Below are positions 29,155 to 32,398 of a DNA stretch of 64,000 nucleotides, piece after piece; position 1 is the first letter of the stretch, and each line of letters begins with the position of its first letter. The notes beneath the pieces were generated by a model. The model was not told the DNA's origin, made no database searches, and saw only the letters and a program-made list of their open reading frames with translations. The position numbers and the translations under genes are program-made. Source of the DNA: Methanocorpusculum sp. (GTDB lineage Archaea; Halobacteriota; Methanomicrobia; Methanomicrobiales; Methanocorpusculaceae); the NCBI GenBank assembly GCA_017408885.1, contig JAFQTT010000004.1, positions 1 to 64,000 of the forward strand. Reading direction: 5' to 3'.

Positions 29155-29268
29155 CTTGTTTTGTACTATTTTGCAGACTTTCTGATACGGTAGCTGTTTT
29201 TGTTTTTCACCGTCAAACACTACATCTTATATTCTCTAAGATTCTATTATCCTATAAGCAGATTGGGC

Positions 29269-29817
29269 ATGAAACGCGTCATCAACTATACCTTAAACCA
29301 GAACAAAGGCATCGTTATTCGGATAGATGATACTGCCGTTGAAAAGGTTATGGTCTGGGCTCTTGGAGACGGCGAAGAGAAAGATGTTCGCGAAACTATT
29401 GCATACTGGTGTGATACAATCACTGCAGCAGGTGGAAAAAATGCCGCATATCACAAAAACGGAGAGGAGTTCTTTGATATCTATACTCATCTTCAAAGAG
29501 GCGGAGAACTTCTTTTCCATGATGCTGTATCAGATGCTACATATACATTAACCCGCGATGTTCTGGTTGAGGGAATTAAGCTTGCTCTCTATGAGTATTA
29601 CTACCGTCTCTATAAGGAAAATATTGCAGCTCTTATTTCGATGGAGCTTTTAAAATACACTGACGGTGTCTATGAGCTTGATTTCCCAAGAGAGAACTGG
29701 AATATGTTTGGTGACTATGCTGTACAGTTCGCGCTTTTCAAGGATGTTTACTATACTCACCACAGCGTAAGAAATCTTGGAAACATCAGAATACATATCC
29801 CAAGATTCAAGCCTTAA
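29269..29817 (+). CDS. Uncharacterised soluble protein
   Basis: 182 residues from MKRVINYTLNQNKG. No signal peptide or membrane helix, mixed alpha/beta, with an aromatic run LALYEYYYRLYKENIAAL and a basic end (RIHIPRFKP). The ATG at 29269 is preferred over the upstream alternative at 29200, whose extra residues (Phe/Tyr-rich, 23 codons) fall in promoter-like A/T sequence. I recognise no family. It is flanked by tRNA-Lys and the ABC transporter and has no operon partner. Confidence 0.5.
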   Translation: MKRVINYTLNQNKGIVIRIDDTAVEKVMVWALGDGEEKDVRETIAYWCDTITAAGGKNAAYHKNGEEFFDIYTHLQRGGELLFHDAVSDATYTLTRDVLVEGIKLALYEYYYRLYKENIAALISMELLKYTDGVYELDFPRENWNMFGDYAVQFALFKDVYYTHHSVRNLGNIRIHIPRFKP

Positions 29818-29938: not shown

Positions 29939-30814
29939 ATGAAGAAATCAGTATTTGCAGTACTTGCAGTATTCCTCCTTGCCGTTCTCTTTGTCGGCGG
30001 AGTTTCCGCAGAGAAGGTCATCACTGGTGTAGATGATCTTGCAGGGGCAAAGATTGGTGTTCAGCTTGGAACTACCGGGGACACCTATGCCACCACCTTC
30101 GAAGGTGACGAGGCAGGAACCACCATCATCCGCTACCCGAAGGGAGCAGATGCAGTTCAGGCATTAAAGACCAACAAGATTGACTGTGTCATTATCGACA
30201 ACCACCCAGCAGAGAGTTTCGTTTCCAAGAACCCTGATTTAATGATTCTTGACAACGTACTTGTCGATGAACTTGGTGTTGAAGAGTATGCAATCTGTGT
30301 AAAGAAAGACAGTCCGTTAACCGCAGAGATTAACGCAGCACTCGCAAAACTTGAAGCAGACGGAACTCTCGACCAGATTATGCTCAACTACATTGGTGAC
30401 GATGCAGGAACTATGCCGTACGTTAAGAAGGATGTAGAACGCCCGAATGGTGTTCTTGTCATGGCAACCAACGCAGAATTCCCGCCATACGAATCCTATG
30501 AAGGAGACAAGATTGTTGGAATCGATGTTGATATTGCACAGGCAATCTGTGATGAACTTGGATACGAGTTAAAGATTACTGACATGGCATTCGATGCAGT
30601 CATCGTCGCAGTCCAGACTGGAAAGGCAGATGTTGGTATTGCAGGTCTCTCTGTAACTGAGGACAGATTAAAGAATGCAGATTTCTCTGACCCGTACACA
30701 ACTGCAAAGCAGGTTATCATCGTCAAGAACCCTGAGGCAGCCGCATCCCCGGCACCGATTCTCGGACTTCTTGCAGGTCTTGGAGTGGCAGCACTTGCCC
30801 TCAGAAGACTCTAA
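29939..30814 (+). CDS. Polar amino-acid-type substrate-binding protein, apparently circularly permuted, with C-terminal anchor
   Basis: 291 residues. Signal peptide 1-24. Residues 31-154 (VDDLAGAKIGVQLGTTGDTY to LDQIMLNYIGD) correspond to the second half of family-3 binding proteins. Residues 171-264 (GVLVMATNAEFPPYESYEGD to DPYTTAKQVIIVKN) correspond to the first half, the reverse of the normal order. The signature after the first strand (FPPYE, VGIDVDIA) and the late signature (GKADVGIAGLSVTEDR) are intact. It ends SPAPILGLLAGLGVAALALR plus RL: a hydrophobic segment and Arg pair resembling archaeal C-terminal sorting tails. The permease and ATPase follow. Ligand probably a polar amino acid. 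Confidence 0.85.
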   Translation: MKKSVFAVLAVFLLAVLFVGGVSAEKVITGVDDLAGAKIGVQLGTTGDTYATTFEGDEAGTTIIRYPKGADAVQALKTNKIDCVIIDNHPAESFVSKNPDLMILDNVLVDELGVEEYAICVKKDSPLTAEINAALAKLEADGTLDQIMLNYIGDDAGTMPYVKKDVERPNGVLVMATNAEFPPYESYEGDKIVGIDVDIAQAICDELGYELKITDMAFDAVIVAVQTGKADVGIAGLSVTEDRLKNADFSDPYTTAKQVIIVKNPEAAASPAPILGLLAGLGVAALALRRL

Positions 30815-30879
30815 TTTTTTTCTTTTCTTAAACTTACGAGTAACAATTATTATTGTCTAATAGAACCAACAGTTACAGA

Positions 30880-31665
30880 ATGGTTCTTGAATTTTCAAAG
30901 AAATCCGTGCTTAGGTCATTCATTCTGGTCCTTGCCGCATTTCTTTTAATATCCATCATCGTTTCACCCGCAGCAGCAGCGGATGGGGGTTTTATCGATA
31001 AGATTTATGATACTCTAATCGAAGATGACCGGTATCAATATCTTTTAACCGGTCTGCAGAATACTCTGATTATCACATTCTTCTCGCTGATTCTTGGATT
31101 GGTGCTTGGTTCGTTAATCGCTGTTGTTCGAACAGTCCACGACATGAAAGGAAAGCTGAAACTATTAAACCTCATCGCACGCGGTTACTTAACCGTTATT
31201 CGCGGAACTCCTGTATTAATTCAGCTTCTTATCATCTACTTTGTGATATTCGCGTCTGTGGATGTGGCTTTGGTGCCGGTGGCAATTGTTGCATTCGGAC
31301 TGAACTCTGCTGCATACATTGCAGAAATCATCAGGGCTGGAATCAACTCTGTTCCAAAGGGACAGTTCGAGGCAGGTTCAAGTTTAGGTCTGCCGTTTGC
31401 AATTACGATGATTACCATCATTATCCCGCAGGCAATCAAGAATATCTTACCGGCACTCTGTAATGAAGGAATTGTACTCTTAAAGGAAACGTCTATCTCC
31501 GGTTACATCGGTCTTGTTGATTTAACCAAGGGAGGAGATATCATCCGCAGTCAGACATTCGAAGCATTCATTCCATACATTCTTGTTGCGTTAATCTATC
31601 TGACTGTTGTTGTCATTCTGACGTACTTTGTCAAGAAACTGGAGGTAAAGTTAAATGCCAGCTAA
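30880..31665 (+). CDS. Amino-acid ABC transporter permease
   Basis: About 261 residues from the ATG at 30880; a TTG at 30853 in frame would add nine residues. Hydrophobic N-terminal helix, then a segment like a fused loop ([20 protein letters not shown]) and the HisM/GlnP-type core: [36 protein letters not shown], and the EAA loop [20 protein letters not shown]. Five to six membrane spans. It would act as a homodimer with the ATPase encoded next, overlapping it by 11 bases. No clear ribosome site at either start, so the start is uncertain. Confidence 0.9.
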
Positions 31666-32398
31666 CGGAAAAGTCTTAATCGAAGTAAAAGGTCTTCGCA
31701 AAGCCTTTGGGGACAACGAAGTCTTAAAAGGAATTGATACAACCGTCTGCGAAGGAGAAGTTATCGCAATTGTCGGACCATCCGGATGCGGAAAATCCAC
31801 CTTCCTTCGCTCATTAAATCTCCTTGAAGTCCCGACAGGCGGTCAGATTCTCTTCGAAGGTGTTGACATCACTGACAAATCCGTCAACATCAACAAAATG
31901 CGGGAAAAGATTGGCATGGTATTCCAGCAGTTCAACCTCTTCCCGAACATGACCGTCAAAGAAAACATCATGCTCGCACCAGTCCGCTTAAAGATTATGA
32001 GCAAGGAAGAAGCATCCAAAAAAGCTGACGAGCTCTTAAAGAGAATCGGACTTTTAGACAAAGCAGATGCAAGACCGCAGCAGCTTTCCGGAGGTCAGCA
32101 GCAGAGAATCGCCATCATCCGTTCTCTTGCCATGAACCCTGACGTCATGCTTTTCGATGAACCAACCTCTGCCCTCGACCCTGAAATGGTCGGCGAAGTA
32201 TTAAGCCTCATGAAAGACCTCGCAGAATCCGGCATGACCATGATGATTGTAACCCATGAAATGGGATTCGCACGCGAAGTAGCAGACCGTGTATTCTTCA
32301 TCAATGACGGTGTAATTCAGGAAGAAAACACCCCGCAGGAGTTCTTCGCAAACCCGAAGAATCCGAGATTAAAAGAGTTCTTATCAAAAGTACTCTGA
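31655..32398 (+). CDS. Amino-acid ABC transporter ATP-binding protein
   Basis: 247 residues, the normal GlnQ/HisP length. Walker [11 protein letters not shown]-loop [13 protein letters not shown], signature LSGGQQQR, Walker [14 protein letters not shown] and switch His in [14 protein letters not shown] are all present. Powers uptake by the permease whose gene it overlaps by 11 bases. A hairpin terminator follows at 32432. Confidence 0.95.

Follow-up and report, generated by a model that had tools for sequence, protein, structure and literature searches.

The Permuted Receptor and Its Parts

The window analyzed here is a stretch of 64,000 nucleotides from Methanocorpusculum sp. (assembly GCA_017408885.1, contig JAFQTT010000004.1, positions 1 to 64,000), and it encodes a family-3 substrate-binding protein (SBP_bac_3, PF00497) whose two halves stand in reverse order. 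The original prediction, made from the letters of the DNA, had described the exchanged halves in one continuous reading frame, a leader, a break at the hinge strand QVIIVKN, and a hydrophobic tail attached where the C terminus meets the hinge. It had interpreted these features as a natural circular permutation, and had named misassembly as a concern. The leader, the break, and the tail are all present as described. The gene and its parts are the following:

29939..30814, forward strand: circularly permuted family-3 substrate-binding protein, 291 amino acids plus stop, defined by its open reading frame (ORF), Pfam and PDB matches, and a rotation test
29939..30013, forward strand: signal-peptide-like leader, aa 1-25, recognized from sequence; predicted local distance difference test (pLDDT) below 50 for aa 1-23
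30020..30403, forward strand: family C half, aa 28-155, placed first; lobe 2 plus the terminal lobe-1 helices, from PDB and profile matches
30404..30439, forward strand: linker, aa 156-167, between the former C and N ends
30440..30730, forward strand: family N half, aa 168-264, placed second; lobe 1 core from FPPYE through TEDR to the hinge strand, from Pfam, PDB, and profile matches
30731..30811, forward strand: C-terminal tail PEAAASPAPILGLLAGLGVAALALRRL, anchor- or sorting-like, directly after the hinge strand

The receptor ORF is a single continuous frame of 291 amino acids, as had been claimed, with its own leader and stop codon. Within it, no N half precedes the permuted domain and no C half follows it. 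A pattern check of the sequence found no lipobox in the leader. The SBP_bac_3 model matches the receptor with 116 bits (gathering cut-off 26.4) in two stretches, the best of which places aa 173-264 on family positions 1-92. Because the Pfam model still matches, the permutation is hidden from standard domain annotation. In phmmer searches against the PDB, residues 9-104 of AncQR (4zv1) match aa 170-264 of the receptor, and residues 109-232 of the same chain match aa 28-153. One chain alone among the best 60 of 95 solved ones has a best stretch across both halves, namely the SBD1-SBD2 tandem of the two-domain GlnPQ (6h30), whose residues 101-328 match aa 27-262 in one piece, at the domain junction. 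The receptor departs from the canonical N-half-then-C-half order of SBP_bac_3 and is classed as a permuted derivative. Its scores lie below the curated NCBIfam cut-offs for TIGR01096 (135.2 of 256.35 bits), GlnH (110.8 of 303 bits), and ArtJ_Ecoli (91.7 of 510 bits), and the permutation itself may lower such scores. OpuAC (PF04069) is absent from the six Pfam families that match the receptor at E up to 1.

Rotation Test and Structure Model

The chain order was tested by rotating the mature window domain at every fifth residue and scoring each rotation against a profile built from 38 canonical relatives. In its native order, the mature receptor reaches 151.6 bits as the best single stretch. Cut at aa 156, 161, or 166, it reaches 295.5 bits in one stretch over model positions 2-218. 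All 15 canonical controls lose score when their halves are swapped (the first falls from 376 bits to 194), and all 91 proteins previously classed as hinge-permuted gain, by 52.2 to 166.7 bits (median 151.9). These scores show that the order is permuted, that about 12 residues bridge the old chain ends, and that the new ends lie at the hinge crossover, after the strand QVIIVKN. The 291-aa receptor is thus a family-3 binding protein (SBP_bac_3, polar amino acid type) that has undergone natural circular permutation, with the cut at the hinge crossover. The predicted reversal is borne out by this test and by the PDB alignments; that the permutation is natural is further supported by same-order homologues in archaea and bacteria and by a structure model.

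That model, an AlphaFold2 (AF2) run answering the call for structure prediction in the original prediction, is a confident two-lobed fold (pLDDT 85.7, predicted template modeling score 0.79). Each half matches a domain structure of TmArgBP, and in prediction the receptor has the two-lobe type II fold. The last strand, aa 254-263, continues into the tail, which places the C terminus beside the hinge as anticipated. The linker of about 12 residues would bridge the old C end (the terminal helix of lobe 1) and the old N end (the first strand of lobe 1), so that both lobes and the binding cleft could re-form within one chain that starts and ends at the hinge. A linker this short would also suit a domain-swapped dimer or oligomer, in which the C half of each chain would close against the N half supplied by a partner chain. 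In a study of ribose-binding protein, one of two engineered permuted half-proteins forms such a segment-swapped dimer (PMC9815098). However, the monomer model of the receptor is confident in both lobes, and a canonical tandem protein (L100) joins the same two ends by linkers of similar length; we consider swapping improbable and retain the single-chain fold. An AF2 model of a permease-fused relative (L040), made from a 3-row alignment, is too poor for use.

Importer Partners and Ligand

Two genes downstream of the receptor complete the cluster:

30853..31665, forward strand: amino acid ATP-binding cassette (ABC) permease in normal order, with an extra N-terminal leader
31655..32398, forward strand: amino acid ABC ATPase (GlnQ-like) in normal order

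Their normal order, which had been stated before, agrees with the Pfam coordinates: BPD_transp_1 covers aa 82-264 of the permease (profile 1-179), and ABC_tran covers aa 24-172 of the ATPase (profile 1-137). The archaeal permeases carry the extra leader ahead of the first transmembrane part. Upstream of the receptor, positions 29200-29814 encode a 205-aa protein without any Pfam match at E up to 1, and L011 and L039 also carry a homologue in the upstream position.

Arg243 and Asp87 of the receptor are invariant in 45 aligned permuted proteins chosen by hand. Their equivalents in GlnBP and LAOBP hold the carboxylate and the amine of the amino acid, respectively. The ligand would then be a polar amino acid gripped by Arg243 through its carboxylate and by Asp87 through its amine. 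Taken as a whole, the best explanation, and one with high confidence, is that the window protein serves an ABC importer for polar amino acids as its extracytoplasmic receptor and is circularly permuted at the first hinge crossover. A permuted paralogue outside the 45-protein set (L105:2096-3469) lacks the binding-site arginine of the TEDR motif and, going by its sequence, is possibly not an amino acid binder.

This paralogue, together with the surface-anchor-type tail of the archaeal form, would be compatible with a sensor or decoy binding protein instead of an importer receptor. Yet permease and ATPase genes follow the permuted receptors in archaea and bacteria wherever the locus extends far enough, and 29 distinct ORFs are fused to a permease (one of them, L178, broken). 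A sensor or decoy role is therefore very unlikely, and the importer receptor is the reading adopted below.

The neighboring genes offer hints only, from which side-chain specificity is not readable and no ligand is named. One copy in Roseburia porci (L046) adjoins a gene of the arginine-deiminase/DDAH family, and the other scanned neighbors are uninformative. According to a study of Methanocorpusculum, host-associated species make fewer of their aromatic amino acids themselves, and the gut is proposed as a source of amino acids (PMC10035134), which fits an uptake role for the receptor.

Occurrence of the Permuted Order

The permuted order is found in eight of 25 genomes of the window's genus, its own included, in one case as a tandem C-N-C-N. 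Among named records, the closest matches are from Methanocorpusculum. The 29 loci examined in these records comprise 12 permuted loci, 16 canonical loci, and one with a C half only. Four of the 12 belong to Methanocorpusculum, one to a metagenome-assembled genome of the Methanosarcinaceae, and seven to bacteria, including Blautia glucerasea MSK.21.93 (L044) and a Roseburia porci copy interrupted by an internal stop.

In the Lachnospiraceae, the family of Blautia, at least 63 of 299 genomes have a permuted ORF with a match of E 1.7e-66 or better. This count includes G196, whose ORF is cut by the contig end, and excludes G224, which has a canonical triple; G041, G109, and G322 have additional divergent permuted ORFs among the matches listed. 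The Lachnospiraceae receptors are either stand-alone or fused to a permease. Beyond the family, sampling is sparse. At the level of the order, 13 of 196 genomes match at E 1e-53 or better (12 hinge-permuted and one cut in lobe 2), five of which are already counted in the family sample. At the level of the phylum, four of 398 genomes match at the same threshold, three of them again from the family sample. In the window's own phylum, one of 294 genomes matches at 1e-45 among the matches listed, namely the window genome itself; other permuted congeners are not among the entries listed for this sample, and more divergent forms would escape it.

An assembly or annotation artefact, whether a canonical gene with its halves exchanged or two tandem canonical genes whose junction was taken for a single gene, might be entertained since the window genome is a draft (13 contigs, 90.52% complete) and tandem canonical receptors exist in relatives (L100), but it deserves almost no credence: the ORF has its own leader and stop with no extra half on either side, the protein is kept by selection, and the same order in independent assemblies, including that of Blautia glucerasea MSK.21.93 (L044) and contigs of about 3.5 Mb (G300 and G131), leads us to reject assembly error. 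The homologue search thus also settles the earlier concern over misassembly.

Architectures and a Second Cut Site

Across 182 loci, the distinct ORFs fall mainly into three architectures, C-N (65), canonical N-C (60), and C-N-permease (29). Rarer forms are C-N-C (three) and C-N-C-N, C-N-C-N-permease-ATPase, and N-C-N-C-N-C-permease (one each), along with the partial forms C alone (two) and N-permease (one). Pieces of L046, L107, and L178, broken or truncated at a contig end, are among the ORFs counted. Among the ORFs retrieved, the possibility that proteins matching both halves are mere junctions of tandem canonical domains holds only for the N-C-N-C-N-C-permease of G224 (L100), which was left out of the permuted count. 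In the other fetched permuted ORFs, a C half lies at the start and an N half at the end, before any permease; the three C-N-C proteins are counted apart.

These three bacterial proteins begin in the middle of lobe 2:

L177:1158-1955: lobe-2-cut permuted receptor
L152:1246-2052: lobe-2-cut permuted receptor
L179:1393-2256: lobe-2-cut permuted receptor

Each starts at profile C position 69-71 and runs to 123-124, passes through the N half, and ends with the first part of lobe 2 (C 4-10 to 70-72). The cut site lies between the helix PAKAFVAEN and the strand LKILDTEY (letters of L177). Read at the level of sequence, this is a second, different circular permutation in family-3 receptors, with its cut inside lobe 2.

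Several single proteins extend this range. L101:1588-5034 encodes a single 1149-aa chain made of a leader, C-N-C-N, permease, ATPase, and about 120 more residues, with half of an importer in one polypeptide. In the tandem C-N-C-N ORFs of L015 and L101, the pairing of the halves is ambiguous. L100:1413-4331 encodes a fusion (973 aa from stop to stop) of three almost identical canonical receptor domains with a permease, and a triple of this type is a plausible kind of intermediate towards permutation. In Roseburia porci, the fused permuted receptor L046:3962-5527 is broken by a stop inside the N half, and an intact fused copy (L119) is found elsewhere in the same genome.

Descent and Probable Transfer

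The permuted receptors are close to canonical ones. The nearest canonical relatives are 63% identical to the window protein with the halves in register, and permuted and canonical receptors share about 54-62% identity on average per half. Identities of the N and C halves correlate within permuted proteins (0.75) and within canonical proteins (0.68), so both halves seem to share a history. The near-identical domains of L100 indicate that in-frame tandem duplication occurs in this group. Duplication of a canonical receptor in this way would yield N-C-N-C, and if the outer N and C halves were then lost, C1-N2 would remain, which is the permuted order.

A careful tree of 96 rows groups 62 permuted rows with one canonical row in a clade (support 96/86), five further permuted rows in a second group (99/86), and two lobe-2-cut rows nested in a canonical clade (99/96); a program warning indicated that the bootstrap was not yet stable. 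This tree was built without long-branch or remote rows, among them permuted L101, L103, L105, L122, L148, and L149, lobe-2-cut L179, most archaeal canonical rows, and two other canonical rows, and the rest was thinned to 96. A single clade of all 67 hinge-permuted rows is not rejected (approximately unbiased test, p-AU 0.311), and joining the two lobe-2-cut rows to it is borderline (p 0.0501). The divergent L101, L102, and L104 have a linker pattern in common that differs from the one in the main clade, a difference compatible with more than one permutation event.

The trees differ on how the system reached the archaea. In the permease tree, six archaeal permeases cluster in a single clade (98). 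Support is 0 for the group of 11 rows that encloses it and 93 for the group of 13 rows around that; in the latter, the seven non-archaeal rows are fused permeases. A quick receptor tree, from which L046, L107, and L178 were excluded as broken or cut off and which was reduced from 161 to 142 rows by removal of near-duplicates and gappy rows, lends moderate support to placing the main archaeal group within the fused receptors. In the 96-row tree, this group has no resolved place and other archaeal rows stand elsewhere. Permease and receptor trees thus disagree on the number of transfers into archaea. Gut methanogens probably acquired the importer system from Lachnospiraceae-type bacteria, a direction suggested by its spread, as the system is common in Lachnospiraceae and undetected in the other sampled genomes of the window's phylum.

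The receptor gene is under purifying selection, with nonsynonymous divergence (dN) of 0.073-0.147 and synonymous divergence (dS) of 0.518-0.749 in comparisons with four congeners; in two more distant comparisons, dS is 2.4 and beyond saturation. The window protein is most likely a working amino-acid receptor of bacterial descent that arose when a tandem duplicate lost its outer halves, and that carries an archaeal anchor tail. For the group as a whole, we lean slightly towards a broader scenario of repeated permutation in the family-3 receptors of Lachnospiraceae and gut methanogens, once or perhaps several times at the hinge and in a separate event inside lobe 2, with permease-fused tandems as the generator. 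One recent family would thereby hold canonical, two permuted, tandem-permuted, and single-chain importer forms together.

The Archaeal Tail

A search of the window genome with the receptor tail gives 11 matches at E up to 10, its own included, and at least nine other proteins of the genome end in the same kind of tail. The recurrent tail has the rough form S-P-x-P-x-x-G-x-L-A-G-L-x-A-A-x-x-L-R-R and stands on at least ten proteins (G000, L184-L193). The genome encodes archaeosortase A (ArtA; 190.9 bits, cut-off 75). The PGF-CTERM model (TIGR04126) does not match the last 60 amino acids of the window protein at E up to 10, and the tail of L047 scores 16.2 of the 24.5 bits required by that model. 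The archaeal receptor would be tethered by this resident-type tail right after the hinge strand, at the position where the fused bacterial relatives run on into the permease.

Comparison with Known Systems

With close permuted and canonical pairs, from the same bacterial family and with homologous partners, one can test directly how lobe closure, release of the ligand, and docking to the permease change with chain order, with the position of the termini, and with tethering at the hinge. The group is also well populated, and its close relatives allow the possible steps of permutation (tandem duplication, loss of outer halves, and a second cut) to be followed. It amounts to a natural experiment, in which a rewired nutrient-binding protein of a methane-making archaeon of the gut, with a rearrangement that is common in gut Lachnospiraceae, has been kept by evolution.

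Canonical SBP_bac_3 proteins such as GlnH, ArtJ, LAO, TmArgBP, and AncQR resemble the receptor in both halves, in the binding-site arginine and aspartate, and in standing beside a PAAT-type permease and an ATPase. They differ in chain order, with their termini in lobe 1, whereas the window receptor is reversed and has its termini at the hinge crossover. GlnPQ (SBD1-SBD2-permease) likewise has tandem receptor domains fused to a permease, and 6h30 aligns with the receptor across their junction. However, the domains of GlnPQ keep the canonical N-C order, in contrast to the C-N-permease of the fused bacterial relatives, and the window receptor stands alone, unfused. The permuted binding proteins of biosensors are man-made, whereas the window receptor is natural and under selection. 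Work by Clifton et al. in 2017 on such engineered proteins reportedly indicates that the scaffold tolerates permutation.

Natural permutation has a precedent in other binding protein families. The CPSARST paper reports circular permutation for glycine betaine binding proteins (2b4l, 1r9l, 1sw1), for molybdate binding proteins, and for CysB, with less than 24% identity in any pair of the proteins shown there (PMC2395249). In the same paper, OpuAC and ProX, both type II binding proteins, are circularly permuted relative to each other. Permutation is common to them and the receptor, but they belong to another family with another ligand class and are highly diverged, whereas the permuted and canonical forms described here are up to 63% identical. 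In sequential alignment, OpuAC has the highest Z to the receptor model (12.8, 211 residues), which suggests a similar fold and probably the same chain order as in the window receptor. In the open-access literature, we found no report of natural permutation within SBP_bac_3, which is a weak negative. Natural permutation of this fold is already known between remote families (PMC2395249); what appears to be new is its occurrence within SBP_bac_3, with unusually close canonical relatives and with more than one cut site.
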